Source of the DNA: Polytrichum commune
Lineage: Eukaryota > Streptophyta > Polytrichopsida > Polytrichales > Polytrichaceae
NCBI GenBank assembly: GCA_950295325.1
Contig: OX485803.1
Span: 15,192,001-15,256,000 of the forward strand
DNA: 64,000 bases
Direction of reading: 5' to 3'
Shown here piece after piece: positions 6,086-43,690 of this stretch (the first letter of the stretch is position 1; each line of letters opens with the position of its first letter). The translations under genes were made by a program, and so were the position numbers. The notes under the pieces are model-generated. The model saw only the letters and a list, made by a program, of their open reading frames with translations. It was not told the origin of the DNA and searched no databases.

Positions 6086-6089
6086 CCGA

Positions 6090-12560: not shown

Positions 12561-13054
12561 GTTAAGTTACCCACAACATGATGGTTATGTAGGACTAAAT
12601 GAATACAAGCCTTGGATATCATAAGGGATGTGCAGTAGGCATGTATGATGTGAGCATTGCACTAAACAATGCAAATAGATGTGGAATAACATACCCTATA
12701 CTCCAATCTTGATTTCTTGTGGACCACATTTCCAATAGAAAGTGGGATAGGAATTGACCCAATCCATTTGTTGTAGTTACCAACGCCTTATTACGATACA
12801 TGTAGTTATTGGACATTGTAGATGACCAACACAAGAAAAATGCATGAATAAGAATTCAAGATCATTCTAAATATTGGTTGTTTTTGTTGTGTATCAATTT
12901 CATCACGCATCTTGTCCATGCCATCCATGGAACAACATTGCGGAATACAAACAATACATCACCATCAAAAGTTGGCATCAAGAAAATCAATGTTGTCAAA
13001 GTCAATAGTTGTAAGATCAAATTTTGATGTTTTCTTGTATTTTGTTAAATTCAA
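12561..13054. other. Probable remainder of the old MULE, unassigned
   Basis: This lies upstream of the degenerate transposase on its minus strand. It may contain the N-terminal zinc-binding part, but I could not align it to the intact copy. There is no other recognisable gene. Confidence 0.4.
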
Positions 13055-21400: not shown

Positions 21401-23660
21401 CAGGTAGACTGGATATGTGTCCACGAGGGGGAGGTATGAGAAACTGTGTGTGGAATTATTCACCATATCCACATGGGCGTTAATAGAATTCATACGTTCA
21501 TTCTTCCATTCAATTCCAAAGCCACAGATTACGTAGAGGTGAAGGGCCTTCAGGACTGCTTGACTCTTACAGATCAATTGCCCAATAGAATAGTTTTGGA
21601 CCTGATCATAGCCATGATCAAATATATACTTCAAAAACTCAAGTTTGAGTTGATGTGTATCAGCCACCTAGAGGTTAAGTGCCCATCAATTTAGACACAA
21701 ATTAGCATTCAGCATTTCAGTTGCTCTTGAATTGAGATTTTGAGACAAGAGTTGGAAGCATGCTCTTAGAGGATAGTTGTTCATTTGGACAATCCAAGCT
21801 GTGGGAACAGAGGCATTGTAGCAATACATTCCCAAAGTACTCATGCAATTCCTTATTAACGACATAATAGCTGCGATTGCTATTAAATTAGCTTCAGAAG
21901 CTTTCAGAATAAGCTTGCTTGCAGCTGTTCATGTTTTTATTTGGCGTGCTTATAATTTACCTAGTAGTACCTAGTGATTTCTTTTAGGGGAAAAGAAAAA
22001 GTTATGATTGGCTTATGCAAAACATCCACGCATCTAAAGTTCTCTTAGGAACAGTAAGAAGTTGTAGTTACGCCATTGGCAAATTCTTGACCTAGTATGT
22101 AAGACCACCTGGCAATCTATCTAGCTTCAAAAGCCATGCTTTGTGAATAATGTATTAGCAAGTATCTCTTTATATTTCTTGCTAATGAGTACTCCACAAA
22201 GTTGAGACTTGATTGAATGTCTGGTCAAATACATGGTGATTTGTTGTTAAAATATTATGTTCAGAAAGGTCAGTATACATCATTCAACTTTGTTTACCTA
22301 AACAATAGTCCCCTACAAATCTGAAGTTGCTATAGAAGAGGTTGACTAGGCTGCAAATCTACTTCAAACTTACATGTTGACTACTAGTAGTATTTGCCAC
22401 CTAGGAGATACACAAGACTCTAGTATGCTTTTTCTTCTTCGTCTTATAGGTCAGATGGTTCACAAGTAAAGTCGGTATTGCGGCATTCATTTACTACGTA
22501 ACATAGGCTTTGATATGGATTTAATGTTGTTTCAAATACAACTTTCATACAGCCTGTTCTTGATTCTTCTCTAAATACAAGCACATTGCATTCCATCCCT
22601 TCGTACTAGGTTGACAGTGGATAATTAACCTTACTCGAAAATTACATTCCTCACCTCCCACATCAAATTATAGTACTTTCCCTGATTTGCATGGTTGTAT
22701 TTGTCTGTCAAGGAATACAGTGATCTAATGGTGCTCCAAGGATTCAATCCGTATGCCTATTTGACTGTGTTTGATACGCAAGCTGTGAGTGGACATTGTT
22801 CTCAACTACCTCGAATAACAAGTCTATATTGTCTTTTCGCATGTCGGACTGACACTTTGATATTCAGGGTCTTGTGAAGGGCTTATAAAAGTCCAATTGA
22901 ATTTGGCTTCACCTTAGAATTTCTAACCCATGGATGATCCTTGTTGTTTGTCATTGTATTCGGAACGCGTTGGTTGATTATGGATAGGATAGATTGGTGT
23001 GACACAGTGAAATTGTAGTTAAAAGCTCCTATTGTCCAACAAGAAGTTTTGGGTAATTTTTAGGCCATTTGGGCCATTTAGAGAGTCGATTGCTTATTAC
23101 AGAGAGTTCACTAATACATGGAATTTCAAAGGCTATGGGTCTCATTTTATAATCTCCTCCAGTTTTGGGGTGTCTCCTTGGCAGTTGTAAGTTTATTTCA
23201 CTCTTGCATGGAAATACTTCAATTTGTACCCAAAGGAATTTAATTTGTAAAAAATGGTTTGATATGATGATTTAAGATAATTCTTGTTGCTCATACAACT
23301 ATCAGCTAATTTGTGTTATCAATGACATGACATTATTGAACTGTGCGTGATTGCTCTCTTTGAAAAGAAAGCCATGTCCAACTATCGTTACCTCAACATG
23401 AAGGAAGTCCTAAAGTAGCCAGTTGTTTCTATCCAACACCCCTGAAATGTGAGCACCTATATTTAAGTGGTGTGGTTTTCATGTGTTTATACTTATTTGT
23501 GTTGCTTGGCAGTTTAATCTCTTTCATCCTATCAGGTGCAAAAGATTACTTAGGTTTGAATTTTGAGAACAATTACCAAACATACATATACTCAAACTTA
23601 GTCAACCGTTATAGGTTCAGTAGTCAACATAACTAAGGGGACCTATATGAGCATTTAATG
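18430..23660. other. Long stretch with no recognised gene
   Basis: Five kilobases of moderately A+T-rich DNA without domain-bearing ORFs or clear repeats. The most protein-like short frame is plus 19862-20089 (75 codons, mixed composition), but it has no motif and a poor start context. Together with the GC-rich island upstream, spliced non-coding transcription is possible, though the sequence does not establish it. Confidence 0.5.
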
Positions 23661-23663
23661 ACC

Positions 23664-23672
23664 ATGAGAATG
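23664..23672. repeat. Target-site duplication, left copy
   Basis: ATGAGAATG immediately precedes the left terminus. The same nine bases follow the right terminus at 42956-42964. The match extends to 11 bp (CCATGAGAATG) if two adjoining C are counted. Nine to eleven bp is the normal duplication for Mutator-like elements. Confidence 0.88.
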
Positions 23673-23711
23673 GGGAAAAGCTATTTTGCGAGCGGTGAGC
23701 GGTGAGCGGTG
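23673..23711 (+). repeat. Left terminal inverted repeat
   Basis: GGGAAAAGCTATTTTGCGAG followed by GCGGTGAGCGGTGAGCGGT. It pairs with 42917-42955 apart from a 2-base length difference near the tip. The internal 7-bp GAGCGGT repeats could bind transposase, which is inference. Confidence 0.92.
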
Positions 23712-23867
23712 AGTTTTCTAGAATATTGAAAATTTGTGTGGTGAAACATGCCCTATGACCGCGGTGTAGAGCTAAATTTTGAAATATTTATTGACAATTT
23801 TATTGACAAAAAGAACCTATAACCGTGGTTGATGAACCTATACTGTATTTGCTTGCACCTTCTCTTA

Positions 23868-24640
23868 TAAGGTTTGTAGGTTGGGAATGGCTCTCGGATG
23901 GTTACAGGATGTCATATTTGAGGTCGATTAAGTCCCACTGGGAGAAGGCCTCGGATCCGAGGCCTCATGGCTGCGGTATCATTTCAGATTGGGTATAAGG
24001 TTTGTAGGTTGGGAATGGGTCTCGGATGGTTACAAGTTGTCATTTGAGGTGGATGAAGTCCCACTGGGAGAAGGCCTCGGACCCAAGGCCTCATGGCTTG
24101 AGCCCCTAAATTATGATTGTGTATAAAGTTGGTGGTTTCTGGGTGGGTCTCGGCATTTCAAGTGGAGGGGCTACTTTGCAGAAGGCCTCGGATCCGAGGT
24201 CTGTTGGCCTTGGGGTTTGCTATTTGATTTGAGGTCAAGTTTATGATTTCAGATGGAATGTAGGCATGCCATGTTTGGGTTTCATGTCTAGCTACATTCA
24301 ACCTGACTCCATAAATTTGAAACCGAATCATTGGTATCAATTTGGGTCTCGACATGCCCAATGGCTTAGATTTCATGTTCGGTCTCGGCATGGCCACTTT
24401 GGACAAGGCCTAGGGGTTTTATATTTAGGGTGAATTAAAGTTTATGGTTTCCGGTTGAATGTGGGCATGCCATGTTTGGGTTTCATGCTTAGCTACATTC
24501 AACCTGACTCCATAAATTTGACATGAAATCATTGGTTTCAGGTTGAGTTTCGGCATGCCAAGTGGTTCAGATTTCATGTGGGAGTGGCCACTTTGGATAT
24601 GGCCTCGGATTTCTTGGAGTTTGATGTTTGATTTGAACCA
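23868..24640. repeat. Left subterminal tandem repeats with palindromes
   Basis: A block reading GGTTTGTAGGTTGGGAATGG, then TCTCGGATGGTTAC, then CCCACTGGGAGAAGGCCTCG, occurs at about 23872 and 23996 and is diverged at 24126. A second block (GCATGCCATGTTTGGGTTTC and following) occurs at about 24265 and 24463. A perfect 20-bp palindrome AGGCCTCGGATCCGAGGCCT sits at 23946-23965, a 14-bp one (CCTCGGATCCGAGG) at 24186-24199, and degenerate versions at 24074 and 24602. TCTCGG half-sites recur between them. Confidence 0.85.
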
Positions 24641-25138
24641 AAAACATAGGATGATGTCCATATTTTATGCACAAGCCTTTTTTGGGTTATTCCATTCTTC
24701 TTCCATTCTATCTTCTGATTTTTTTATTCTTCCATTCTTCTTCCAGTCTATCTTCTTATTTTTTGTAATTCTAAAAAACGTATTGATATTCTATACTTAT
24801 CATCTTTAATTTTTTGGTTTAGTTTTTCGGTTTAGTTTTCCTTAGTCTTTGTTTCATGTTTTGATCTATATTTTTACAACTACATTTCTTTATGTTTTTT
24901 GGGTTTTGTTTTGAATTTTTTTACATGGATGATGCTATGGTGGATAATGAGGTAGTTTACCTCTATGTCTTATTGAATAATAGAGTGCAAGGAGGGTGTA
25001 GGGTAAGAATGTAAGAAGGCATTACAAAATATAATTCACTGTCTAAGGAAAACCATGAAGATTACCGCACTAAACGGACAATTAACAATCAAATGCAAAA
25101 ATATATTATTATACAAGCAATAAGACACAAAATTCTAC

Positions 25139-28100
25139 CTAAGACATATAATTGAAATCACAATTATCAGATAATGCTACAGAGACTTTAGAATCTGTAC
25201 TATCTGCATCTGAAGAACCTTCATCCTCAGACTCAACAGCTTCTAAATCAACATACTCTATACCGCTTAGCATCAACTCCTTAGGTCTAAAAGTACGATA
25301 TGAACCTTCCGCTAATTCATTGGCAACGTTATTTGCGTATGAAGGGAGCCGCCATGACTTTGGAGGGCTTGGATAGAACTTAGGGTCACAAAAAAAAGCG
25401 CGGTGATAAGGGTATCTCAAATTACCGCTTCTGCAAATGCAAATGGCAACATGGTCATAAAACTGCCTCATATGAAAGCAAATAAGAAAATATATCACTA
25501 GTAGTAGAAATAGTAGCTATACTCACTTACTAAACCTTGACTTCTTCACGATCTTCTGAACAACAATGATTTCGCTATCTGGATCCTCTGACATGACAAC
25601 ATCTCTTGATTTCACTTCTATGGCCGAAGCAGATCGAATTAGAGGAGCGATCAAGGCTTCAAAAATTGCCTTGTCAGCCTCTAATGCCGCAATGTGACGG
25701 TTCACATTGCGGCACGCATGAATAGAAACTCCTGCAAAATAAGAAAACAATGAAGTTCAGTTCTCAAACAACATAAAAATTAATTAACATGAAATGGTCA
25801 ACGGTTATTTACTTAAACATGAAGAGATGTTCAACGTACCCGTAGTTGTAGAGCAGTCTAGAACAATATCCCCGGGTGAAGAAGATGCCTGAATGAGCAT
25901 CTGTATAAGGGCGAGGGATTTTTCGCGAGGACCACGCCAAGGGGTGGATCCATCCATTAACTGATCCTCCCTTGACACCAGGTTCTGGAGAATGTCATCC
26001 CGTGCCACATCAACCCCGTGACGGTCTAGTGCAGGGATGTGTTGAAAGCAAAATCTGGAAGCACGCACCTCCGGAATGCTCCTCACAACTAAAGTTATTC
26101 CAAACCTCATGGTCTGCAGATTACAAAAACAATTAATTACTTTACTTACGAAATAAGATAAAAATCATTAAGCACATTCCAGCAAATGAAATGGAAGATT
26201 AGTTTCACAAGATTAATAACATAAGATACAGCTATCAATCAAATTAGCAATAAGTCATATCATAAAATGAACTCACAGTCAAGGCTGGATTAATTGGTGA
26301 AGTCAGATGAAGCTTGTTCATCCCCCACCACTCTTTGCGAACAGCAAATCCATATGTGGAACATAACCCAAGAATGATTGACTTTGTAGACATTCGAAAA
26401 GGATGGAACAAAACTATCGCCCCATCGTCTTGGAGGTGATGGTCTGCGAAATCAAAGATTGTTTGAAACCAATCCTCAGGTTCTATGTTCCAGGCGGGAA
26501 TAGACGAAGGTGGATTCGAAATTCCTGGAACAGGAAGGCCCTCTGGAAGATCTGCAAGAATCAAGTCCACACAGGGTACTTCCGCAGCAGATCCTTTGTA
26601 GCGTCGGCCTTTGTCACTTGAGTGCTGCGCATGAAAATAAATTTATCAAAACTCCGACAAGAAAATCAAAGATTGCACACATTCTAACTTGACACCATTC
26701 TGAATTAATGTGAATCAATTACTTGACTTCGAGATCAAATACATGAGAAGGAGATGTGTATGTAATGAAATCGCATATAACATACAAAAACAGATAGAAG
26801 TCAACGACTTAAGGAAGTGCTGAAGTTTTAATACAATGAAAACTAACAAAGAAATGTGTTGGATGTCATTGTAATGAGAATGATGACCTACGAATGATTG
26901 AAAGAAACTTGAGAACTCATTCATGGGACTCCGCAGCTTGAGAATTAGAATTGAATGAAAACATAAACAAAACAAAGCTGTTGAGCAGTATGGTACCTTA
27001 GAAATGAAGCTCTTTAACTCGTCATATAATGGACTCAAGTTGCCCGTGTCGCCACCAAGGACTTGCTCTAGTGAGAAGTTTTTAATCCACTCCCCAACTT
27101 GGCCATCATTCTCCTCAACCGATGTGAAAACAGGGATTCCTTGGCTTAACTGCTCATAGGAGGAATCGCGTTTGGTTCCTCTAGACTGAATTGGAGCATG
27201 AGAACCAGAGTCATGTGTAGGACTAGGCGCAGGTGGGCTCTTACATTCTGGCTCTGGAGGGGGGTTCATCTTCTTCTTCCCCCTCTTGTTAGTCTTCTCC
27301 AGAGAGTTGTGGAGTTTTGCCATCTCTTTTTGGGCCGCTTTCTCCTCAGCTTCCTTCACCTTAAGCGCTTTCTTCCTATCTTTTTCTAGACGTCGCGAGA
27401 GGGCCTTTGCCCTCTCGTGCTCGTCTTCAATGCCCTGTAAATCAACCATCTCAACACAAGACTCACCAACTGCATCCCTCGACTTCCTAAGTTCAGTTTC
27501 AAAGGAGGGAGTGAAACTAGGAGCACAGTCGAGGTACCATCCACCTCCTGTGAGATGCGAGGTAGACCACGTCCGCTGCTGATTTGCTGAGAACATGCAC
27601 GTTGAGTTCGACCTGTCAAGCCATGTAGAGAGAAATATTGGGAGATCTTCTTTTGTTATTGCTCCTTTTGCAAGGAGCTCGTACTTGAAAAACCTGCGGG
27701 TTAAAAAAAACCTCATCGTTATATACCTTGCAATCAAAATACATGCCATGTGAACAACCAAATCAATATGACAAATACAAGAATTCTAGTTGGAGAAGGA
27801 TAAATCTTACCGAAAGAGTACTCTTCTCACAATCAAGTCAGTTCCTTTGAAGCCCTGAAATTCGTGAGTTTTGTTAAAAGCATCTTGCCCTCGAAAGAAG
27901 GTGGGGAATGCATTGTCCCATAACTTCATTCTACAATCCTCGATGTATGCAACCAAGGATAAGGGCTCGCTGGGTACTTCAAAGTTGATAACCAGTCTAT
28001 CTTGACGCACTGTTTCTTCATAGATAATAGAAGCCTGCTCGGATATCTGTGGAAAGAAAATATAATAGAAGCTCCCCGAATTCAAATAAGCGCATATGCA

Positions 28101-31100
28101 CAATTCAGCTGACGCCTAATCACAACCTGAGTAACATTTAGCCTGAACTAAATTCAAAATCAAATCTGATTTCAGGCCCAATCACAACCTAAGAAACATA
28201 TAACCCAAACTCACTTCACACTTAAATCAGATTCAGGCCTAATCACAACCTTATCAACTTATAACCCAATTGATTTCACACTTAAGTCAGCCCACTTAAT
28301 ACCCTTGTCTAGGGTGTCTAGGGAGCGAGACACACTTTTTTGAACAAACCTAACTTTCAGAAATTTGATTTCAGGCCTTATATCAGCGTTTCCAACTTCA
28401 CACTCAAATCAGATTTCAGGCCTAACGACATTATTACCAACATCCAATTCAAACTCACTTCACACTTAAGGTTGATTTCAGGCCTAACAAAGACCTTACC
28501 AACATCCTACCCTAACTGATTTCAATCATAATTCAGCCCAGTTAAGACCTTGTCCAGGGTGTCTCGGGACCGAGACACAATATTTTGAACAATTCAAATT
28601 TCAGGCCTAATCACAACCTAAGAAACATATAACCCAAACTCATTTCACACTTAAATCAGATTCAGGCCTAATCACAACCTTATCAACTTATAACCCAATT
28701 GATTTCACACTTAAGTCAGCCCACTTAATATCCTTCTCAAGGGTGTCTCGGGACTGAGACACACTATTTTGAATAAAGCTAACATTAAGAGATTTGATTT
28801 CAGGCCTTATATGAGCCTTAACAACTTCACACTTAAATCAGATTCATGCCTAATCACAACCTAAGCTACATATAACCCAAACTCACTTCACACTTAAATC
28901 AGATTCAGGCCTCATCACAACCTTATGAACTTATAACCCAATTGATTTCACACTTAAGTCAGCCCACTTAATACCCTTCTCAAGGGTGTGTCGGGACCGA
29001 GACACACTATTTTGAATAACGCTAATATTAAGAGATTTGATTTCAGGCCTTATATGAGCCTTAACAACTTCAAACTTAAATCAGATTTCAGGCCTAATCA
29101 CAACCTAAGCTACATATAACCCAAACTCACTTCACACTTAAATCAGATTCAGGCCTAATCACAACCTTATCAACTTCTAGCCCAATTGATTTCACACTTA
29201 ATTCAGCCCACTTAATACCCTTGTCTAGGGTGTCTCGGGACCGAGACACACTATTTTGAACAAATGTGACTTTCAAAAATTTGATTTCAGGCCTTATAGC
29301 ATCCTTAACAACTTGACACTTAAACCAGATTTCAAGCCTAATCACAACCTAAGCAACATATAACCCAAACACACTTGACACTTAAATCAGATTTCAGGCC
29401 TAATCACAACATAAGCAACATATAACCCAAACTCACATCACACTTAAATCAGATTCAGGCCTAATCACAACCTTATCAACTTCTAACCCAATTGATTTCA
29501 CACTTAAGTCAGCCCACTTAATACCCTTCTCTAGAGTGTCTCAGGACCGAGACACACTTTTTTGAATAGACCTAACTTTGGGAAAATTGATTTCAGGCCT
29601 TATATCGGCTTTACCAACTTCACACTCAAATCAGATTTCAGGCCTAATGAAATTATTACCAACATCCAATTCAAACTCACTTCACACTTGAGGTTGATTT
29701 CAGGCATAACAAATACCTTACCAACAACCTACCCTAACTGATTTCACACATAATTCAGCCCAGTTAAGACCTTGTCCAGGGTGTCTCGGGACCGAGACAC
29801 ACTATTTTGAACAATTCAAATTTCAGGCCTAAACACAACCTAAGCAACATATAACCCAACCTCACTTCACACTTATATCAGAGTCGGGCCTAATCACAAC
29901 CTTATCAACTTCTAATCTGAAATCACTTCACACTTAATTCAGCCCACATAAGACCCTTGTCTAGGGTGTCTCGGGACCGAGACACACTTTTTTGAACAAA
30001 GATGACTTATAGAAATTTGATTTCAGGCCTTATGTCAGCCTTAACAACTTCAAACTTAAATCAGATTTCAGGCCTAATCACAACCTAAGCAACATATAAC
30101 CCAAAGTCACTTGACCCTTAAATCAGATTTCAGGCCTAATCACAACCTAAGCAACATATAACCCAAGTTCACTTCACACTTAAATCAGATTCAGGCATAA
30201 TCACAACCTTATCATCTTCTAACCCAATTGATTTCACACCGAAGTCAGCCCACTTAATACCCTTGTGTAGGGTGTCTCGGGACCGAGACACACTATTTTG
30301 AACAAATGTGACTTTCAAAAATTTGATTTCAGGCCTTATAGCAGCCTTAACAACTTGACACTTAAACTAGATTTCAGGCTTAATCACAACCTAAGCAACA
30401 TATAACCCAAACACACTTGACACTTAAATCATATTTCAGGCCTAATCACAACCTTATCAACATATAACCCAAACTCACTTGACACATAAAACAAATTCAA
30501 GCCTAATCACAACCATAGCAACATCTAACCCAATTGATTTCACACTTACTTCTGCCCACTTAAGACCCTTGTGTAGGGTCCAAGACCGAGACACCCCTTA
30601 TTAACCAAATCTTACTCTCAGAAATTTGATTTCAGGCCTACTAAACACCTTTACAACATGACACTTAAATTTCACACTCACATCAAATTCAGGCCTATTC
30701 ACAAGCTTACCAAAGTCTATCCATCACTCACTTCACACTGAAATCAGCTGTCGGGCATCATCACAAGCTAAGCAAAAAATATCCCAAACTCAGTTCACAC
30801 TTAGATCAGATTCAAGCCTAATCACAACCATAGCAACATCTATCCCAATTGATTTCACATTTAGTTCAGCCCACTTAGGACCCTTGTTGACCAAATCTTA
30901 ATGTCAGAAATTTGATTTCAGGCCTAATCACAACCTAAGCAACATATAACCCAAACAGTTTTCAGGCCTCAAGACAAACAAATTAAACGAATTGATTGGG
31001 AAGTATTAACTCACTCCGGCCCAAAAGCACGCCTTAGCTAGAAATGCACCTAGTTTCTCCTCGTTGGTGGGCTTAGGGGGCAGTTTGCGGGCCTCACGTG

Positions 31101-34100
31101 TAGATGCAGAGGAGTTTAAATATTCCAGCCATTTAACCTTAGAAGCGGCCGATGCTTTTGCAGTAACGATCAACTGCAATTTCTCCATATTGACCTTGGG
31201 TGTAATTGAGTTAAGACTATAGTGACGTCCAATCTGTGAAACATATAGCTATTTATTAGAATCTCAGGGGTCATTAAAGAACATGAAGATTGAAAAATGT
31301 GCTTGTAAAGTAGAGTTTATACCTCTCGAAGCCATCCATCCGTCAAGTCCGGGTTTGCCAGAGCAACTAGTTTCGACACTTTCTTATGAAGTGCCTTGGC
31401 TCTTTTCTTTGTAGCAACTTTCATATCGGTTGTTTTTTCAGCGGCGGATACTTCTACATCTGATTGCTCCACAAGTTGTCGAACACCCTCATCTGCAGCA
31501 AGTCCAAATTCATGCTGCACAGGGGTAGACTTAGTTAGTCATCCAAGTATACTGTAACCTAGGTGATCATTTGATTTTAGATAATGACAATATGTTAGTG
31601 ATTAAAACAATGCAGTACATATTATAGAGATCATACCCGGAAGATGAAGTTCGTGAATACTTGAAGATTCAATGTGTACCAAGTTTTTTTGGCATTTTGA
31701 GTTCTCTTGCACCTCTTCATCTCTGATGGAGTCAATATGTCTTGATAATGTTCGATTGGCATAAGACCATACTTTTGAATCCTAAAAAGGGTGTGAACAA
31801 AGTTGGTCTTGACGTGAGAGTCTTCAGTATGCCTGCAATTATCAATCAAAAAGGGCGGATTAGCACATGACATTAATGATATAACAAGAAGCATTTTACA
31901 TAGAAAGAAATACAAATTAATTAACAAAACTTACTTGTTGATGTTATGCATCACTTGCATAACAACCCCAACTTTGCCTTTTGTGTCAAGTAGGATGCAA
32001 TCCACCATATAATGCCAGGCCTCATCTGTTTTGTGAAGTCTTTCAATATGATTTAACCATGCCTTACGCCTATGGTTACCGTCACATACAAAGAACATCA
32101 AATCCTTGAAACCGGCTAACTCCAGAACAAACTGAAGATAGGAATTGAATTCTTCATTTTTTGAATTCCAAATGGGACCCCAAGATGCCTTATCAGCTTC
32201 AGATACCTCCTGTGTTTTGCCTTCTTCATCTGTTAATGTCATATAAAAAACTGAGGAGCCCTCTCTATACCCATGGACAAACTCCTGCTCCAATTTATCA
32301 AGATCAGTTGAGAGTGTTGGCCTCACCGTAGGCATGGCAAGCATTCTACATAAAGGAATATTGAACCTCGATGAACTGAAAGGTTTGACTCTCAATTGAG
32401 AGATCATGGCCACGGAATTCAATTTCTGACGGGATCTAAGTTCATCTTCATCCCCGTCAAACGTATCCTTATCTCCAAGCCCATCTTCATCCTCATCCTG
32501 ACCTTCATCAGAACTGTCAAGATCAATTGCAGTCTCTCTTGAAGCTTGAGTCGCTGCCGGTGAAGCCGGTGCCGGTGAGTCCTAGGGGGTGGGGCACTCG
32601 ACCTACAAAACACAGGTATGTATTTAAGACACAAAGTTGCATGGCATAAGGTACAACTAATTCACACATTATGTAACTACGTGAGTACTTACCTCTTCCC
32701 CAACATTCTGCTCATCATGGTCCATGATGCCTTCAATAGCATTTGAAACGTAAGTTTCAAGATCGGTAGCTCCCAAACTCTGCGGAAAATCCAATGCTTA
32801 CTTTTCCAATTTTGATGTCAGGCCTAATCACAGCCTTTCCAACAACCAACCCAAACTAAACTCAAAGTCAAATAATCTGTTTTGGCGTAATCAACATCTT
32901 GGCATATAAACTAAATTCACACTCAAATAAGATTTCAGGCCTAATTACAATCCAATAATCATTTAACCAACAATGAAATTTCAGATTTCAACTCTAAGCA
33001 CATTATAACCAACATCCAATTCAAATTCACTTCACAATTAAGGTTGATTTCTGGCCTAACTAAAACCTTACCAACATCCTAACCCAACTAATTTCACACA
33101 TAATTCAGCCAACAAGACACCCTTGTCTCGGGTGTCTCGGGACCGAGACACACTATTTTGAACAAATGTGACTTTCAAAAATTTGATTTCAGGCCTTATA
33201 TCAGCGTTGCCACCTTCACACTTAAATCAGATTTTAGGCCTAATCACATTATTGCCAACATCATATTCAAACTCACTTCACACTTAAGGTTGATTTCAGG
33301 ACTAACAAAAACCTTACCAACATCCTAACCCAACTGATTTCAAACATAGTTCAACCCAGTTAAGACCTTCTCTAGGGTCTCTGGGGACCGAGACACACTA
33401 TTTTGAACAATTCAGATTTCAGGCCTACACACAACCTATGCAACATACAACCCAAACTCACTTCACACTTAAATCAGATTTATGCCTAATCACAATCTTA
33501 TCGACTTCTAACCCAATTGATTTCACACTTAAGTCAGCACACTTAATACCCTTCTCAAGGGTGTCTCGGGACCGAGACACACTATTTTGAATAAAGCTAA
33601 CATTAAGAGATTTGATTTCAGGCCTTATATGAGGCTTACCAACTTCACACTTAAATCATATTCAGGCCTAGTCACAACCTAAGCTACATATAACCCAAAC
33701 TCACTTCACACTTCAATCAGATTCAGGCCTAATCACAACCTAAGCAACTTCTAACCCAATTGATTTCACGCTGAATTCAGCCCACTGAAGACCCTTGCCT
33801 CGGGTGTCTCGGGACCGAGACACACTATTTTGAACAATTCAAATTTCAGGCCTAAACACAACCTAAGCTACATATAACCCAAACACATCTTCATACTTAA
33901 ATCAGATTCAGGCCTAATCACAACCTAAGCAACATATATCCCAAGCTCACTTGACACTTAAATCAAATTCAGGCCTATTCACAACCTTTTCGACTTCTTA
34001 CCCAATCAATTTCACACTTAAGTCAGCCCACTTAATACCCTTCTCAAGGGTGTCTCGGGACTGAGACACACTATTTTGAACAAATGTGACTTTCAAAAAT

Positions 34101-37100
34101 TTGATTTCAGGCCTTATATCAGCTTTACCTACTTCAAACTTAAATCAGATTTTAGGCTTAATCACATTATTACCAACATCAAATTCAAACTCAATTCACA
34201 CTTAAGGTTGATTTCAGGCCTAACAAAAACCTTACCAACATCCTAACCCAACTGACTACAAATATTGTTCAACCCAGTTAAGACCTTCTCTAGGGTCTCT
34301 CGGGGCCGAGACACACTATTTTGAACAATTCACATTTCAGGCCTAATCAAAACCTAAGAAACATATAACCCAAACTCACTTCACACTTAAATCAGATTCA
34401 AGCCTAATCACAACCTAAGCAACATATATCCCAAGCTCACTTCACACTTAAATCAAATTCAGGCCTATTCACAACCTTATCGACTTCTAACCCAATCGAT
34501 TTCACACTTAAGTCAGCCCACTTAATACCCTTCTCAAGGGTGTCTCGGGACCGAGACACACTATTTTGAACAAATGTGACTTTCAAAGCTTTGATTTCAG
34601 GCCTTATATCAACTTTACCAACTTCAAACTTAAATCAGATTTTAGGCCTACTCACAACCTAAGCTACATATAACCCAAACTCACTTCACACTTAAATCAG
34701 ATTCAGGCCTCATCACAACGTTATCAACTTCTAACCCAATTGATTTCACACTGAATTCAGCCCACTGAAGACCCTTGCCTCGGGTGTCTCGGGACCGAGA
34801 CACACTTTTTTGAACAAAGCTAACTTTAAAAGATTTGATTTCAGGCCTTATATGAGCCTTGCCAACTTCACACTTAAATCAGATTCAGGCCTAATCACAA
34901 CCTAAGCTACATATAACCAAAACTCACTTCACACTTATATCAGATTCAGGCCTCATCACAACCTTATCAACTCCTAACCCAATTGATTTCACACTTAAGT
35001 CAGCCCACTTAATACCCTTCTCAAGGGTGTCTCGGGACTGAGACACACTATTTTGAATAAAGCTAACATGAAGAGATTTGATTTCAGGCCTTATATGAGC
35101 CTTGCCAAATTCACACTTAAATCAGATTTCAGGCCTAATCAAAACCTAAGAAACATATAACCCAAACTCACTTCACACTTAAATCAGATTCAAGCCTAAT
35201 CACAACCTAAGCAACATATATCCCAAGCTCACTTCACACTTAAATCAAATTCAGGCCTATTCACAACCTTATCGACTTCTAACCCAATCGATTTCACACT
35301 TAAGTCAGCCCACTTAATACCCTTCTCAAGGGTGTCTCGGGACTAAGACACACTATTTTGAACAAATGTGACTTTCAAAAATTTGATTTCAGGCCTTATA
35401 TCAGCTTTACCAACTTCAAACTTAAATCAAATTTTAGGCCTACTCACAACCTAAGCTACATATAACCCAAACTCACTTCACACTTAAATCAGATTCAGGC
35501 CTAATCACAACCTTATTAACATACAACCCAAACTCACTTCACACTTAAATCAGATTCAAGCCTAATCACAACCTAAGCAACATATAAACCAACCTCACTT
35601 CACACTTAAAACAGATTCATGCCTAATCACAACCATTTCGACCTCTAACCCAATGGATTTCACACTTAAGTCAGCCCACTTAATACCCTTCTCAAGGGTG
35701 TCTCGGGACCGAGACACACTATTTTGAACAAAGCTAACATTAAGAGATTTGATTTCAGGCCTTATATGAGCCTTACCAACTTCACACTTAAATCAGATTC
35801 AGGCATAATCACAACCTAAGCAACATATAACCCAAGTTCACTTCACACTTAAACCAGATTAAGGCCTAATCACAACCTTATCGACTTCTAACCCAATTGA
35901 TTTCACACTGAAGTCAGCCCACTCATTACCCTTGTCTAGGGTGTCTCGGGACCGAGACACATTTTTTTGAACAAACCTAACTTTCGGAAATTTGATTTCA
36001 GGCCTTATATCAGCTTTGCCAACTTCACACTTAAATCAGATTTCAGGCCTTATCAGATTATTACCAACATATGATTCAAACTCACTTCACACTTAAGGTT
36101 GATTTGAGGCCTACCAGAAACCTCAACAACATTATACCTAAACTGATTTCACACGTAATTCAACCCAGTTAATACCTTCTCTAGGGTCTCTCGGGACCAA
36201 GACACACTATTTTGAACAATTCAGATTCAGGCCTAATCACAACCTATGCTACATATAACCCCAACTCATTTCACTTTTAATTCATATTCACGCCTAATCA
36301 CAACATAAGCTACATATAACCCAAACTCACTTCACACTTAAATCGGATTCAGGCCTAGTCACAACCTAAGCAACATATACCCCAAACTCACTTCACACTT
36401 AAATCAGATTCAGGCCTAATCACTACCTAAGCAACTTCTAACCCAAATGATTTCACACCCATATCAGATTTCGGGCCAGAGCAACATCTAACCAACACTG
36501 AATTCACACTCACCTCAGATTCAAGCCTAATCACAACGTTATCAACTTCTAACCTTGCCTCACTTCACACTCACATCAGATTTCGGGCCTATTCATAACC
36601 TATGCAACATCAAACCAACACTCAATTGACACCCACATCAGATTCATGCCTTATCACAACCTTATTGACTTCTAACCTAAACTAAATTCACACTCACATC
36701 AGATTCAGGTCTAATCACAACCTTACCTAAGTGTACCCTAAACTCACTTCACACTCAATTCAGCCCACGTTAGACCCCCCCAAAGGGTATCTCGGAACCC
36801 TGACACACTTTGGAGAATAATGCTGGCTTTCATAAATCTGATTTCAGGACCGATAGCCACAAGTGGCAAGTGGCGCTCTACCTAAAATTCTCTCTCAGGT
36901 ATCCAAAAATATGGCTTGGGTCTCCAACTGTCTCTCTTCAAACCCTACATCAGAAACCATATTCAAGGAGCCTACCTCTTCCTCGAATTGCATCTCGTCA
37001 TTATCCATGGTCCCTTCGCAAAGGTCAGTTGCGTCCCGATCAAAATCTCCGAGTCCCTGTTCAGTGAATAAACTATTTTCGTTGGATAGAAACATTACCC

Positions 37101-37528
37101 TAATCCGAAAACCATAAAAGTCACCAATTGAAAACAATATTCACAAACCTGTTGCTCACTATGATCCGATGTTGAGGCACTCGAGGCTGCCCCAGGTTGA
37201 AGTTGTGTCTGTGTCATTCCCTATTCTAGATGCCCAATCCAAATCCTATTTACATTCCATCACCAAAAATAAAAACAACATAATGGAAAGCTATTGGGTC
37301 TCAACTGTTCTAATTATCCGTGAGAGTGGTTCACATTACGTTTTTGAAGAAAACAATATCATGAGGATTTTTGATAAACAACACCTCACTGCCCCCTTTG
37401 TCATCTGGGTTGTCTTCCTCCGTTACTGGAAATAAAACGATGGGAGCTACCGCTTCAACATCAAACGTCTTTTCCCCTTTGGAACCTCTACCTGTACCCT
37501 TAGAAGAAGTAACCCCTCTTCTACCCAT
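25139..37528 (-). CDS. ParB-like / DNA-methyltransferase-like fusion protein, 14 exons
   Basis: Exons by consensus GT-AG sites, in coding order, are 37528-37385, 37220-37149, 37056-36976, 32779-32693, 32581-31935, 31832-31637, 31514-31323, 31233-31015, 28046-27811, 27693-26997, 26624-26277, 26113-25840, 25731-25527 and 25430-25139. All junction phases agree, giving about 1,229 codons. The N-terminus is acidic and low-complexity. A ParB-like motif GNHRRKA (pattern GxxRxxA, in VCDGNHRRKAW) falls near residues 296-302, and a charged Lys/Glu coiled coil near 715-775. The C-terminus has the beta-class methyltransferase order: motif IV-like DLILADLPEG (about 877), then PGDIVLDCSTTTG (motif I-like, about 1053-1065), then ACRNVNRHIAALEAD. 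DLPEG replaces the usual (D/S)PPY, so activity is doubtful. ParB-methylase fusions are known from phages and bacterial mobile elements, and bacterial or phage ancestry is inference. The start ATG (37528) is the first in the frame below a TATA box. The exon-1 donor is uncertain (alternative near 37342). Confidence 0.72.
28090..30995. repeat. Intronic satellite-like array 1 with ~10 palindromes
   Basis: The 2.97-kb intron between 31015 and 28046 is almost entirely tandem repeats. Blocks such as CAGGCCTAATCACAACCTAA and CCCAAACTCACTTCACACTT recur with a basic spacing near 61 bp. Every 3-5 such blocks comes the palindrome GTGTCTCGGGACCGAGACAC or a close variant (for example 29230-29249, 29781-29800 and 29966-29985), about ten in total. 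Neighbouring palindromes are about 184, 245 or 306 bp apart. Confidence 0.95.
32785..36850. repeat. Intronic satellite-like array 2 with ~14 palindromes
   Basis: This belongs to the same repeat family as array 1 and fills the intron between 36976 and 32779. About fourteen palindromes are visible from about 33132 to 36785, mostly 245 bp apart, with some at about 184, 303 and 368 bp. The outer parts (32820-33110 and 36430-36850) are more diverged and lack perfect palindromes, as expected at the ageing edges of an array kept uniform by unequal exchange. Confidence 0.95.
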
Positions 37529-37666
37529 TGTTGTCCGCAAATTGTACGGCGTCCCTAAGCTTTCTCTTGATTCGCCTCTGTTTCTCACTATTCCTCCTTA
37601 CTTCTCGTTCTGCTCTTGCTCTCGACCTAGTGTTCATCTCTAACAAACATCTGGAGCAAACACATC

Positions 37667-37673
37667 TTATATA
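37667..37673 (-). promoter_or_regulatory. TATA box of the ParB/methyltransferase-like gene
   Basis: On the minus strand TATATAA (within GATATATAAGATG) lies about 140 bp upstream of the first ATG at 37528. No ATG intervenes, so a 5' UTR of roughly 100 nt is predicted. The call rests on consensus and position only. Confidence 0.5.
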
Positions 37674-37990
37674 TCATTTTCAAGTCTGTCAGAATTAACA
37701 TCTATGCGCCATCGTTATGTTCACATTTTCTTGTATTTAGATAGTTAATCTGCAGTTACTTAAAGTGATCCTTTGTTAATCCACCCTGCATTCATACACT
37801 ACAAAATCCTTTTCTACATAATCGTATCCTTCCATGTCAGATAATTCGTGGTGATAAAGGGATGACTACTATTGTAGTACATTCTATTCATACATGAAAC
37901 AGGTTGTCCAGAATTTACATAAATAACTATTGACTATTAATTGATCTATCAAGTTATCTAATATTCGGGCATTGCTATCTACCCTAGGTG

Positions 37991-37998
37991 TATATAAT
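37991..37998 (+). promoter_or_regulatory. TATA box of the plus-strand unit
   Basis: TATATAAT lies about 53 bp upstream of the ATG at 38051. With the minus-strand TATA box about 320 bp away, it defines a compact divergent promoter inside the transposon. Confidence 0.5.
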
Positions 37999-38050
37999 AC
38001 CCGATTACTTGTACCCATTCCTTCATCTCATCTCATCATATTCTTCTCCA

Positions 38051-38479
38051 ATGGGTACTGACTCAAGTCTTTCGAGCCTTGCTCCTTTAGGTGCTCCTAG
38101 TTCATCACAAATCCACACCACATCATCGATTGATGGTTTTCCAGACGTCAACAACATGAAGATTCCAAACCCACCTTACTGCTCAGTTACTCCGGCGGTC
38201 GCAGTTCAGAGTCCACATCCCGGAACTCCATCTTTGCAGACGGATGTTGCAACGCTGATAGATGACAAGTCTACTTTACAGACTCATGCCTATTCTAGAG
38301 TAGGGGTTATTAAACCGGGCACTTACTCTAGATCTCTATTAAGGCAGGCCCCACGTCCCCAAGGTCAGGGACTCGGTTGCGCAGGATGCACTGCAGTTCA
38401 TAGTTTAGGGATTGACCATTGTCATAAACATGACGGTGACAAAAATGGCAAAGGGCCCCATAAGCGTCTTTGTCGTTAA
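38051..38479 (+). CDS. Small Ser/Pro-rich protein with C-terminal Cys/His cluster
   Basis: A 142-codon ORF starts MGTDSSLSS, with a Ser/Thr/Pro-rich N-terminal half. The C-terminus is basic and carries CAGC, about ten residues, then CHKHD, which could form a zinc-binding knuckle. I do not recognise the family. It follows the plus-strand TATA box directly and lies upstream of the transposase, in the same direction. It could be an independent accessory gene or the first exon of the transposase transcript. Possible 3' splice sites just before 38855 (for example TTGTTTTGTTCAG) leave that open. A methionine further upstream (37988) is rejected because it lies before the TATA box. Confidence 0.5.
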   Translation: MGTDSSLSSLAPLGAPSSSQIHTTSSIDGFPDVNNMKIPNPPYCSVTPAVAVQSPHPGTPSLQTDVATLIDDKSTLQTHAYSRVGVIKPGTYSRSLLRQAPRPQGQGLGCAGCTAVHSLGIDHCHKHDGDKNGKGPHKRLCR

Positions 38480-38854
38480 TCACAATGTAGCATTCTAATA
38501 TTATTGCCGAGCTACTATCATGCTCTCCACATTATTCTTGGCTGCCGTCATTCTTATGACCTTATTTGCCAATATATATTATAATCAACAATGTTTAGAA
38601 TGTATGCTTGTTATTGGATTGTACTATTTGATATGTATGCCTGTTATAGGATTCTACTATTCGGTTTCTTGCCTATCTCGGACTTGCATCCAAAATTGGT
38701 TTTTCAGCCGTCTTTCAGTTTGCTCTGCATGACTCTGAAATTCCGCTTGCTGGTACATAAATTACCAGATTGCACAGTAAATTTTTTCCTGTTATATATT
38801 CTTTCCATTACAATGTTCACAGTACTTGTTTTGTTCAGAGTTCAGTGGTTTACT

Positions 38855-41800
38855 ATGGCCCTGCTTTGTGCTGAACCTCATTCTGTTCCGGTCCTCTTTC
38901 CATTAGGTGAAGACGGTCATGCTATAGTCACTTGTGCAACATTGAGTTTGAGGTTTCAGTATCGTGAGGTCACTATCTTTGTCGAAGAAGAAGTTTTTGA
39001 CGATCATACCGGTCTACTTTCACATGCAATTTGTCAAACTAGGGTAGAGAATGATGTCGGTGCGTTCTGGTTGCTGAAGCCTGGAAAATATCGTGTATAT
39101 GGAGTCTCAGAGTCTATGTTAGAGTGTTCGACTGAACTTCTAACACCTAAGGAGTCGTCCACTGTTAGCATTGAGAGACCGGTCCTGGCTAGGGTCAAAA
39201 TTGAGCCCGGTCTAAATACAATATATGAGTTGAGTGATGATTCCGACGGCGATGTTGAATTCCTAAAATCAGAGAGGAAAGTCCCAGCTTCGCTCTCTCC
39301 ACAAGTAGTTCGCAAGGAAACAACTCCTCCTGTTAGTCCGTCTCGTAATCCTGGTCAGTCCAATGTTGTGACAAGTCATGTTGTCAGTATCATTCATTCA
39401 TTGATGCGCCTTGGAGCTCGTAAGCGGTCCAAAAGTGTGTTCTCTCGTATTAACTTTAATGCGATCAGACTCCAGCTGGTTGAATACCTTCCCCCTCGTT
39501 ACGATGGGGACGTTATCTTCGAGTTTCCACCTTTAGGTGACCATGGCCAGAATACAAAGGCCAAGCTGCTTCGTGGAATGGATAGAAGGTACGATGGCCA
39601 TGCTTGGTCTCGCACAATTACAACCAATATTCAGAATGATCTCAAGCTTTTGTTTCGTACATCTTCTTGTTTGGGCCACCTCCGTTGCGACAATCCTGCT
39701 TGTGAGTATCTTCAGCAGGACTTCCCAAGTGAATGAAACAGAGTGGGAAGGATTATCTAAGAAATTGTTTGAAGTAGGGTCCAAGCCTCCAACTGGTTCC
39801 ACCGTTGTTTGCAAATCATGTAACGTCCCTCCCACCTGTGTTGCTGTTTGCACTGCCAAGATCTACTATGTTACTGCGACACCTCACATGACAAGGGTTT
39901 GTGTGCACTTGGGATCTCACGACCATCCCGTCAAGTCAGATGATCATCGGGACTTCATCGATTTGACAAACACCTTGATTGGGGATCAAGTCGAACGCAC
40001 CCCATCAGCCACTCGCTCCGCTATTGTGCTTGAAACTGCAAAGGAAGTATTGGGCCCACTCCTCCTTGCTAAAGAAGGTGACCCACAAAAGATCTTGGAG
40101 TTGGACGAGCTGCAAGTTATTTTCGATCGGTGTAAGCACCTCACCTCGCCCAACATTCGTAACGCAGTCACCACGTTCAGGACTATGCGTCGCTTTGGAG
40201 TCATGGACAGTATTACCAAGTTACGCGGTGCTAGCAATTGGAGGTTCGTGCAACATAATAGGTTTCCAGGGCAAGGAGCGGACATGGACAAGGTCTTTGT
40301 CTTCAAGATGTCTGAAGTTGGACCGGGCAGCGGAGTCGACCTGGTCCAACGAATGCAACCCGGTGGTGACTTGGAGAACTCCTGGATAATGTTTGACCAT
40401 GTCAAACGGGTCAGGTCGTGGACGACAATGGCTTGCCATGTGTAGGATTCCACATATTGCCGTGTCATGACCATCGCAGTATGCGACATGCAGTCTGAAG
40501 ATGTTGTAGTCCAGTCAGTCGTATGGAAGAACCTGAACGCTCTCATGGCTCAACATGGAGTGGACAAAGTCAATTTTAAAGGTTTCATGGCCGACAGTGC
40601 CCAAGCCAACTGGAATGTTGTTCGAATCATATACGGAAGTGGGGATGCGTCTGAGAAGATGGTGGATAGAGAGAGGACTTGTCTTTTCCATTGGACGCAG
40701 TCCTTGGAGAAACATACCAAGGCCGATATCCGTCAAGACCTGCAACATCAGCATCGAATACTATGCCAGCAATACAAGAATGCGAAATCGATGGCGGAGG
40801 CTGAGACAAAGTATTTGGCAATTCGGGCATGGTGGATGTCATCCGGGGCAGCAACTGAACAAGGTCTACCTCGACTTGAGCTCTGGCTGGCCTTCTGGCA
40901 TTTCCGTTACCGCCAATGGGGTGAATTTATGGAGTTGGTAAGTCTATACTTCCCTCTATATTTCCTGTATAGTTCCCACTTTATGGTTCAACTACATTGA
41001 TTCCGCCATTATTCTAATTCGGACTGTATGGGCATTGCAGGATCTAAGTGAAGCTGAACTAGCGGAAATGCCATCCTGTAACCTTGCTGAATCTATCCAC
41101 AACAAGTGGAAGCAGCAATCTGGCGATCGGGGCAGCGACCTTTATGTGGCAACAATCGATGACTTCGTGCGTGCTTTCATGCAGTGTTCAGCATATTCCC
41201 AATTCCTAAAGGGAGAGAACCCTGGAACTGGACCGTCGAAGGAGGAATTGAAGCTGAGGCGTGCTCAGAGGTCTGCCGTAAAAACAGGAATCTCGAAACC
41301 ACTGCATGAGGCCATCTTGAAGATGCCTGGCGGTGACGAGTGGTGCACCAGGACTCCCCACCTCGAAGGGGGAGAGGTATTTGTTTCTCTGAAGCGTAAA
41401 CCGGATACTGCTTTCGGTGACGAACGTGAATCTCACAGGCCAGACAAGATCAGTATATCCCGACCACGCGTCCAAACCAGATCTGCCCGACTGAACGATT
41501 ATCCACCTCTTGTGACAACTCCACATTCTCCCACAACTGCAGATGAAGACCAACCGCAATTTCCAACACACGACGCTCCGCAGCGGGTGGATCGGCACCA
41601 CGTCACCGCGATTGAGGAGACATTATGCAACCCTGCCCAGTGGCACATCGCACGGCTGCCTAAGACATCTGCGAAGGCTTGCTTTGCTCTACAAACAATC
41701 ACCAAGAAGAAGTGCGTCGCTCGGATTGTACAAAACGGGAAGAGCACCGCTGCACCTACCTACTCAGGCCTCATGGATAACTATCGGAAGAAGAGATTGG

Positions 41801-42489
41801 ACCCTCAAGACTTCTTTTTCTGCAATGACGACATTGAGAGATGCGTTAAGGGTACAAAAAGGAGGTGGGTGGTCTCAGTCCCGAACGTTCCGGAGGTATG
41901 GCCAGTTAAGGTGGGGACCAACTTAACCTGCAAAGAGATCCTCTCTTTAGAAAACGCAGGATTTAGACTGTCCCAGCGGAAGGAGATGACACCTTCCAGA
42001 ATTTTTCAGGACCACCCGTTACCTTTGGACTTAGCAAGCTACACGACTCTTACATATCCAGATGAGTTTCCCACCCGGCGTTCAGGGAAGTTGATTAGGC
42101 GCAACAAGAAGGCCCCGTCAACAAAACACGCCAATAATTGTGCCTCAACCCTATCACTGAAAGCCAAAGTGCACAAACTGTGCATGCTTCCAGCCCCTGC
42201 CTTAGGATGCATCGTCTCCTTGGATTCCGGCACGCCCCCAAAGGTTCAGCAATACTACTTGACGATTTCGCAGCTGCCAGCATGCACTTGTCCTAACTTC
42301 AAGGACATGGCGACTAAAGCAATTGGAAAAAGGGGTCAATGGGCCAACTGTAAGCATTTGTACTATTTGTTTACTGTAGTGTGTGGTTTGGACTCAGATT
42401 CAGACACGTTCATTCATGCAGCTAGTTTTAGCTTCAACGAAGTGAAGCGAGTTTTGGATGCTGGTTTATTGAAGTACCTTGACTCTTAG
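38855..42489 (+). pseudogene. MULE transposase, disrupted by a frameshift and a nonsense codon
   Basis: Reading from ATG 38855, a zinc-binding-like block CLGHLRCDNPACEYL (39668-39712) is followed by a one-base frame change near 39720-39735. The new frame continues with CKSCNVPPTC and a HLGSHDHPV block, then the DDE core. The first Asp is in DSTYCRVMTI (codon 40446-40448), directly after an in-frame TAG at 40443-40445. The second is in FMADSAQANW (40593-40595), and CLFH is the MULE CxxH signature. A 103-bp GT-AG intron (40938-41040) is followed by NLAESIHNKW. A SWIM zinc finger, CTC...CKH at about 42293-42357, ends the protein. The degenerate copy at 10.15-12.56 kb has Tyr where the TAG stands. 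The rest is well preserved, so inactivation looks recent. I did not pinpoint the catalytic Glu. Confidence 0.85.
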
Positions 42490-42916
42490 AGTTTTTTGTT
42501 TCTTTAAAGAAACATATGTATGCAAGATTTTTTATAATCATGATGTAGTGAGACTAAAAGGGCCACTACAAGACATTTGACGCACCACATGTATTTCTCT
42601 TTCGTTGTTCCAAAGTTGCGTGACCTTTTTGGAGTACCACTAATTCTCCTTGTACTGAAACAGTACGTGTTTGACTTGAGACAAACCCATATTTATTACT
42701 GATATTAGTTCCAAATGTTCAATTTAAGCCCCTAAACCATATTTTTCACTGATACAATAACATTTTTTCCTATATCATAGCCCTTAATTGTCCACGGTCA
42801 TAGGTCCCATTGTTCACTAAATTTAGAAGAAAAAAATTACTTAAAATACATTTAGTCCAAATATACCCTAAACTTACTGCTTAAAATAACATTTTAATCA
42901 AAATATCGCGGAAGTT

Positions 42917-42955
42917 ACCGCTCACCGCTCACCGCTCGCAAAATAGCTTCGTCCC
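42917..42955 (-). repeat. Right terminal inverted repeat
   Basis: Reverse complement of the left end: GGGACGAAGCTATTTTGCGA followed by GCGGTGAGCGGTGAGCGGT. It lies about 430 bp downstream of the transposase stop. Confidence 0.92.
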
Positions 42956-42964
42956 ATGAGAATG
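42956..42964. repeat. Target-site duplication, right copy
   Basis: ATGAGAATG, identical to 23664-23672. Identity of both copies suggests the insertion is not ancient. Confidence 0.88.
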
Positions 42965-42965
42965 T

Positions 42966-43690
42966 TCACTTTGATATTAAATAGCATATTCATAAGAGCT
43001 CAAAAATTATGAGGGAAATGGCTATGGACACGATTTGGATTTGCTATTGATAATCTTGCACTAATTACATTTTCACAACCTACAAGAAGTGGGTTCGATT
43101 AAGGCCCACTTACCTTATATCAATTTGAATCTAGATATTGGAGCACCAAGAGAATCACCTACAATGGGTCCCTACAATCCACCTAAAGGGTCAAAGGGCC
43201 CAAACGAAAGTACATACAACATCATTTGTTGCTTTCCTTCCATGGAACCGAGTGGAAGATTGCTTGAAAGCAGAGGAATTGGGCAAAAACGCCCCTTGCC
43301 ACTTCATTTGCCAAGGCACACCAACAAATTTGGAGGGGATATTGGCGTTTCCTCGGTGGAATTCATATCTATATTCTTTAGGTACACAATGTTACACGCA
43401 TGTGTTGCTTTGTTACTAGATGGACGTATTTCTACCATAACATCCCATTTCTTCTGTCCATCTAACGTCGACAACCTTGTAATTTTGTAGGTAGCACTAC
43501 CATTATGGACCGAATGAAAATTGTTCCCACATTCATGTTATTATTACTAGAATGTACAAGAAGAAATGGAAGTTGGGTGCAAAAGGATTATATATCTTTA
43601 ACGGCAAGGTTCCCACATGCCTTAAATATATGCTTGGAAAGTAGGTGAAGGACATTGACATGGTTACTAGCACGGGTTCAGAGTCAAACA
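42966..43690. other. No gene; copy of a dispersed repeat
   Basis: The first 170 bp (GAGCTCAAAAATTATGAGGG, then GGCTATGGACACGATTTGGA, then AAGGCCCACTTAC) resemble segments at 57.71 and 58.56 kb. The rest shows no feature that I can support. Confidence 0.5.

Follow-up and report, generated by a model that had tools for sequence, protein, structure and literature searches.

The window analysed here is a 64,000-nucleotide stretch of the Polytrichum commune genome (contig OX485803.1, positions 15,192,001 to 15,256,000 of the forward strand; assembly of 408 Mb in 64 contigs, among them at least seven of 42–78 Mb). With 58 matches to the light-harvesting family PF00504, the genome is that of a plant by content as well. 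The window contains a 19,283-bp DNA transposon with the anatomy of a Mutator-like element (MULE), bounded by terminal inverted repeats (TIRs) and a target-site duplication (TSD). The element carries two divergent genes, a transposase-like gene and a 14-exon gene whose product combines a ParB-like motif with a methyltransferase-like domain (Table 1). That the second gene is encoded by a transposon had been claimed in an initial annotation made from the letters of the sequence, and its position between the two TIRs, next to a transposase, bears this out. Two of its introns hold tandem arrays of a palindrome, and these arrays, together with the altered methyltransferase motifs, are the main subject of what follows.

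Table 1. Parts of the Polytrichum commune element, in window positions
Feature	Position	Strand	Basis
Complete MULE-like DNA transposon (19,283 bp)	23672..42954		Flanking 9-bp TSD, TIR at each end; sharp right-hand terminus
Left target-site duplication CATGAGAAT	23663..23671	+	9-bp direct repeat
Right target-site duplication CATGAGAAT	42955..42963	+	9-bp direct repeat; boundary set by copy comparison
Left terminal inverted repeat	23672..23715	+	Arm of repeat I1
Right terminal inverted repeat	42912..42954	-	Arm of repeat I1; 40 genomic matches scored
ParB-like/methyltransferase-like gene, 14 exons, 1,244 aa	25139..37528	-	Single frame through 13 GT-AG introns; last 11 exons kept in relatives
Exon with [DE]G[ND]HxxxAW domain (GxxRxxA, ParB/Srx-like motif)	31935..32581	-	Alignments A2 and A3; motif only
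Methyltransferase-like domain, exon bearing motif-IV-like DLPEG	26277..26624	-	Motif reading and profile matches
Exon with PWRGPREK and start of motif-I-like DCSTTTG	25840..26113	-	PF01555 match, below cut-off for the open frame and above it when spliced with neighbours
Exon completing motif I (GVSIHACRN..RHIAALEAD)	25527..25731	-	Motif reading and profile match
Intron tandem-repeat array with palindrome GTGTCTCGGGACCGAGACAC	28314..30291		9 sites, up to 2 mismatches
Second intron array, same palindrome GTGTCTCGGGACCGAGACAC	33132..36205		13 sites, up to 2 mismatches
Divergent transposase gene, DDE-like residues and SWIM-like CxC..CxH	38840..42489	+	Motifs read by eye

All 13 introns of the minus-strand gene run from GT to AG, and the exons from 37528 down to 25139 join into one frame with a single terminal stop. 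The initial annotation had predicted 13 introns removable at consensus sites with phase kept, and one long product; both hold, although the product has 1,244 residues rather than the 1,229 given there. The order of motifs that it described is also found, with GNHRRKA at residue 311, motif-IV-like DLPEG at 897, motif-I-like DCSTTTG at 1074 and ACR..ALE thereafter. Exon ends were compared with relatives ~58–93% identical for the last 11 of the 14 exons. These ends are shared, often to the exact residue, and intron lengths there differ; the recurrence of the exon ends thus supports the 11-exon part of the model. By eye, the exons at 37056-36976 and 32779-32693 resemble mutual duplicates. In the L001-type subfamily (loci are referred to by L numbers), a single 577-aa open frame (L001:727-2457) covers what corresponds to exons G to I, which points to intron gain or loss between subfamilies. 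Protein-kinase-like stretches (GRGSYGVVWK, HCDLSFTNI) at L012:1600-2761, 5′ of an L001-type ParB-like exon, may represent a captured gene or a fusion; their Pfam kinase match has only E 0.21.

Profile comparisons identify the C-terminal part of the protein as homologous to the beta-class N6/N4 amino-methyltransferases of bacteria and phages. The spliced domain of the window member scores 36.1 bits against PF01555 (cut-off 26.7, E 8.3e-9), the L001 domain scores 32.4 bits, and all eight members of alignment A1 match the profile at E up to 1. Single-exon queries remain below the cut-off, namely the open frame around exon I (E 6.6e-5) and the L018 exon (14 bits). The PDB profile matches are DpnA (E 2.6e-8 / 3.3e-9) and CcrM (E 1.8e-5 over positions 14-224 of 239), with unrelated chains appearing next, from E 0.03 and weaker. 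Phage DNA methylases match as well: of 362 phage records with E no higher than 1, the 15 listed extend from residues 17-19 to 231-242 of 242 at 24.6–26.9% identity (E 3e-6 to 3e-4). An hhalign comparison with six bacterial and phage ParB-methylases reached Prob 97.6, E 3.2e-12 and a score of 85, where none of 20 shuffles exceeded 19.5. It aligned DLPEG to DPPYG and DCSTTTG to motif I of the bacterial enzymes. Motif IV precedes motif I, the permuted order of the beta class. The class assignment of the initial annotation therefore stands as a statement of homology, but the catalytic motifs, on which it was silent, are replaced.

This replacement follows a pattern. Where catalytic members of the class read (D/N/S)PP(Y/F/W), the aromatic position is occupied by Glu in 16 of the 20 loci read (D[LI]PEG in 12, and also DQPEG, DILEG, DIPES and DIPEN) and by Asp in three (DIPDG in L013, QFPDG in L018 and L030); DIPYG is found in L001 only. 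The FxGxG of motif I is usually altered too: DCSTTTG, DCTAATG and DLTCSTG retain the second glycine only, and both glycines are kept in L001 (DLSVGTG) and L045 (DWKAGTG). Because the Glu residue is kept rather than randomly lost, a new role is suggested rather than decay. With both motifs altered in most loci, the domain is probably not a catalyst.

The two big introns hold tandem repeats, mostly of ~244 bp, that carry the palindrome GTGTCTCGGGACCGAGACAC. It has 12 perfect sites, or 22 with up to two mismatches, all in these introns and none elsewhere in the window. Agreement between repeat units is 0.96 over the 20 palindrome positions, compared with 0.82 and 0.80 in the 40 bases on either side, flank values that were computed ungapped and that indels would depress. 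Across the genome, GTGTCTCGGNNCCGAGACAC has 997 sites and its reversed control 0. A recurrent perfect palindrome lies in or 5′ of the gene at 16 of 27 family loci, and its sequence differs between subfamilies: AAGTGTTTCGGGCCCGAAACACTT in L005 and L010, GGTTTCGGGACCGAAACC in L017/L038 and L039, GGGTTTCGGTACCGAAACCC in L044, GGTGTCTCGGTACCGAGACACC in L029, GTTTGGGTCGANCGACCCAAAC and TGTGCGTTAACGCACA in the L018-type, L028 and L030, and TGTTTGTGCGC..GCGCACAAACA in the L001-type and L012. GACTGTCTCGGAACCGAGACAGTC has one exact site in L008. The rest of the window, 44.6 kb in all, has no recurrent palindrome, nor do three other MULE loci. A further palindrome, AGGCCTCGGATCCGAGGCCT, is present at 23946-23965, close to where the window's element begins on the left, and again in L011.

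The core of these sites is conserved and their two arms vary together. When sites were selected by the core TCGGNNCCGA alone, the consensus of 17 loci was symmetric in 16, 15, 13 and 15 cases at offsets 1-4, and the corresponding counts at offsets 5-7 were 12, 6 and 8, in a set that includes close relatives and two loci mixing different sites. The arm pairs are C-G or T-A at offset 1, T-A or C-G at offset 2, and T-A or G-C at offset 4. Covariation between the arms of 12 chosen rows (alignment A7) was 0.309, compared with 0.131 after shuffling and at most 0.158 after sliding, and 0 of 500 shuffles were as high; symmetry was one ground for choosing the rows, and close relatives are among them. 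Left out of A7 were L010, L011, L014, L015, L030 and L039, as near-duplicates or mixed, and L007, with one site, was added. For the L044 palindrome, 35 sites fall into 16 clusters, 13 of them 0.2–3.6 kb 5′ of an L044-type exon (chance ~0.001 per cluster, from 25 of the 150 listed exon rows). Conversely, of the 19 L044-type genes with an identity of at least 70%, 13 have a palindrome cluster within 10 kb.

The gene belongs to a large family, for which every copy count is a lower bound. A first exon search gave at least 117 genomic matches (41 scored of 3,682 candidates), and B-exon searches from two other subfamilies gave at least 150 each (of 1,165 and 1,339 candidates). At 22 of 36 gene clusters the nearest listed transposase within 60 kb is upstream and divergent, at 3.9–40.7 kb; 12 have no listed transposase within 60 kb and two have one in another orientation, a count that used 47 of the 117 gene rows and 91 of the 150 transposase rows. 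Ratios of nonsynonymous to synonymous divergence (dN/dS) were calculated by the Nei-Gojobori method between the window exons and other copies, skipping codons with stops, and many dS values were saturated or undefined. Over all exons, dN/dS is 0.07–0.23 for the nine diverged copies in which it is defined; by part of the gene, the defined values are 0.10–0.23 for exon B, 0.07–0.29 for exon G and 0.07–0.23 for the methyltransferase exons. Most of the gene is thus under purifying selection across diverged copies, and the exon signal goes beyond chance because the exons recur in many copies at such low ratios. In L003, L008 and L011, dS to the window differs strongly between N- and C-terminal exons, which suggests that subfamilies have swapped halves of the gene, perhaps by way of the tandem arrays in its introns.

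Inverted-repeat arms of 57 nt (23659-23715 and 42912-42968), 82% complementary, span the ends of the element, and CATGAGAAT occurs in the window at the two duplications alone. Twelve copies of the right-hand end were fetched with their flanks, of which nine were readable and three could not be anchored. In these nine, identity to the window is 96–100% inside and 22–29% outside and breaks exactly at GGACGAAGC, which fixes both the terminus and the duplication. The right-hand end is present at no fewer than 40 genomic places (40 scored of 169 candidates), in a search whose query starts at the terminus and whose matches do not bear on its position. By eye, the flank outside the TIR end of L062 (C6:35287040-35287340) reads like exon G of another gene copy, which would be a nested insertion.

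MULEs are defined by TIRs and a TSD of 8–11 bp, an anatomy that this element shows. The transposase-like gene has at least 150 genomic matches (150 scored of 1,450 candidates) and, by eye, the series D..D..CxxH..E followed by CxC..CxH, which takes the form CTC..CKH in the window copy and in L020 and L028. The window gene is broken relative to the open copy L020: its frame shifts near 39712-39717, and a TAG interrupts it at 40443-40445. With an E limit of 1, Pfam finds nothing in the open transposase of L020, neither MULE PF10551 nor SWIM, and the window place is absent from 142 PF10551 genome matches (150 of 271 candidates scored). An hhalign comparison with nine other MULE-type genomic loci paired the second D and CxxH and did not rise above shuffles. 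The superfamily name MULE, also used in the initial annotation, thus holds by anatomy (TSD, TIRs, and DDE- and SWIM-like motifs read by eye) and not by Pfam or other profiles. The N-terminal part of the transposase (window 38840-39712 on the plus strand, L020, L028) has an internal duplication, two L020 segments matching overlapping window DNA, and by eye a SUMO-site-like VKVEP followed by acidic LSDDSD-like stretches. An L018-type element has two open transposase frames (L028:2212-3576 and 3920-6145), divergent and upstream of the gene.

The closest parallel in layout is provided by the VANDAL elements of Arabidopsis. According to PMC5735166 and PMC10398659, an accessory gene beside a MULE-type transposase encodes VANC, which causes methylation loss; VANC21 binds YAGTATTAY, and the motif differs by family. 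The VANC21 motif is repeated in tandem within introns of both VANC21 and VANB21, and also 5′ of VANA21 (PMC5735166). The present element likewise has an accessory gene beside a MULE-type transposase, and family-specific short motifs in tandem repeats within the introns and 5′ regions of its own genes; the likeness is one of layout. Unlike the VANC motifs, the present motif is a perfect palindrome, and unlike VANC the present protein has a domain derived from a beta-class methyltransferase. VANDALs are described as non-TIR or degenerate-TIR elements, whereas the TIRs here are clear. The putative anti-silencing analogy with VANDALs, raised in the initial annotation, is strengthened by the palindrome arrays.

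Other precedents concern the protein. Phage ParB-methylase fusions, such as the 'ParB-like partition protein' of OP947158, also have a G..R..A region before a permuted amino-methyltransferase domain, and their methyltransferase parts are homologous to that of the plant gene. The ParB-methylase comparator L021 has DPPYG and a GxG motif I and matches PF02195, a profile that the plant domain does not match. Eukaryotic transposon-borne DNA methyltransferase domains are described in PMC5890265 as Dam-like methylases of DIRS retrotransposons and as retrotransposon DNA methyltransferases (DNMTs) in dinoflagellates and charophytes; those are of other classes and sit in retrotransposons, unlike the DNA transposon here. 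The N4CMT of bdelloid rotifers is, according to PMC8885841, a bacterial PF01555 enzyme of the same permuted type that was captured as a host gene (an allelic pair), has SPPY and deposits N4-methylcytosine (4mC) at transposons. The present gene, in contrast, is transposon-borne with altered motifs. Among the open-access papers listed, judged by titles and abstract starts and with subscription papers and preprints outside this scope, none was recognised as describing a ParB-like or N6/N4-methylase gene within a MULE-type element.

Because the array layout matches that of VANDAL/VANC, we propose that this accessory gene of a two-gene, head-to-head element encodes a protein for sequence-specific self-recognition, likely anti-silencing, that reuses a methyltransferase fold; we put the probability of this reading at roughly 0.45. 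In the mechanism that we infer, the protein would bind the palindromes of its own subfamily as a dimer or oligomer. Once bound, it would keep the non-coding DNA of the element free of host silencing or, as an alternative step, mark element DNA for the transposase. The methyltransferase-like domain would serve DNA or nucleotide binding, not catalysis. A bolder version is more tentative still: a phage-type amino-methyltransferase may have become a catalytically silent, sequence-specific reader outside the VANC paradigm, co-evolving in each subfamily with a parS-like array to give many private cis/trans pairs.

Several observations weigh against self-recognition by a silent methyltransferase fold. 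No DNA-binding domain was recognised in the protein, and ParB homology failed every profile test. Recurrent perfect palindromes were not found in the fetched stretches of 11 of the 27 family loci (L004, L006, L008, L009, L013, L018, L040-L043 and L045). Within this group L004, L006 and L009 have imperfect repeated cores, and recurrent perfect palindromes missing from the stretch fetched for L018 are present in L028, another part of its element; the diverged L040-L043 and L045 have none that recurs. The proximity of palindromes to genes shows membership in the element rather than binding, because palindromes travel with the element. The relatives and mixed sites in the 17-locus set, and the choice of rows for A7, count on the same side. 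So do the DIPYG and DLSVGTG kept by the L001-type, the last exon with its weaker constraint (dN/dS 0.30–0.78), the close copies L014 and L015 (0.27–0.84, usual for decay after insertion) and the broken state of the window's own element.

Three alternatives have to be set beside this proposal. It is doubtful that the palindromes are sites for a host factor, or RNA hairpins, with the protein acting as a transposition co-factor at the TIRs. TGTCTC is a known auxin-response half-site, and intron arrays would be transcribed. The auxin-response reading was rejected, since it fails in other subfamilies, which have GGTTTCGG, TGTTTCGG, GTTTGGGTCG or TGTGCG half-sites and not TGTCTC. Against a hairpin, the TCGG-NN-CCGA sites hold a fixed 2-bp centre, and their inner eight pairs, 96 cells in total, include one G-U, so that a DNA dyad fits better. 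MULE accessory proteins do exist as precedents for a co-factor, namely mutB and vanB (PMC6446971).

It is similarly improbable that the domain of exon B truly adopts a ParB/Srx (CTPase) fold, with parS-like palindromes and a centromere-like spreading taken over from a phage or plasmid ParB-methylase. The rows of alignment A3 keep [DE]G[ND]HxxxAW, and in GxxRxxA the G and A are invariant and the R follows the H in 10 of 11 rows. The L005/L010 half-site TGTTTC..GAAACA equals the half-site of bacterial parS, which may be coincidence. ParB-methylase fusions occur in phages and in one small, probably contaminant, contig, and a PHROG ParB match has E 0.09. On the other side, Pfam matches include no ParB, NCBIfam gave nothing for the B-exon domain, no ParB is among the PDB profile matches and no helix-turn-helix domain was recognised. 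With hhalign, two family alignments compared with 11 bacterial and phage ParBs gave Prob 0.2–0.3, within the scores of shuffled (8 and 30) and reversed controls, for alignments that are shallow (Neff 1.9 and 2.6). A single-sequence AF2 model of exon B, run without an alignment, has a mean pLDDT of 36.9, too low to speak for or against the fold. The ParB-like label of the initial annotation therefore shrinks to the GxxRxxA motif; of the two profiles it had named, that of the methyltransferase (PF01555) matches and that of ParB does not. Given the shallow alignments, this amounts to a lack of support for ParB, not a disproof.

The genome has three matches to PF02195, all on the small contigs C12 and C23. 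These and C10 carry bacterial-type ParB and methylase frames, and C12 (61 kb) encodes a 443-aa ParB-methylase; the three contigs are likely bacterial contamination. A scan of the genome contigs with the C12 ParB-methylase found no relative.

Least probable of the three is an active amino-methyltransferase that marks or protects the element by adding N6-methyladenine (6mA) or 4mC to its DNA, with DLPEG and DCSTTTG as working variants: the PF01555 score above cut-off, the purifying selection, the motifs retained in the L001-type and L045 and the transposon-borne adenine methylases of DIRS elements (PMC5890265) would agree with it, but the aromatic residue is replaced in nearly all loci read and most lack the first glycine of motif I.

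If self-recognition through a reused methyltransferase fold is correct, transposons would have gained anti-silencing through a protein derived from a bacterial modification enzyme, which in plants was put to new use as a reader of DNA. Diverged pairs of protein and palindrome within one genome would let the co-evolution of a DNA-binding protein and its site be asked directly, and the same pairs would show how private recognition splits transposon families. Matches to PF01555 in plant genomes may then be non-catalytic transposon genes and should not be taken as evidence of 6mA or 4mC writers.

Other parts of the window hold further repeat-derived sequence. On the minus strand, 12096-12566 resembles by eye a 742-aa frame of L028 (HHLVGSSLEV..MDKFSTL..NCRNFVSGSK) and is probably a relic of an L018-type transposase. 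A Copia-type reverse transcriptase/RNase H frame can be read by eye at 1466-2668, also on the minus strand. Finally, 59642-60436 is a tandem repeat open in several frames on both strands, a simple satellite-like array.

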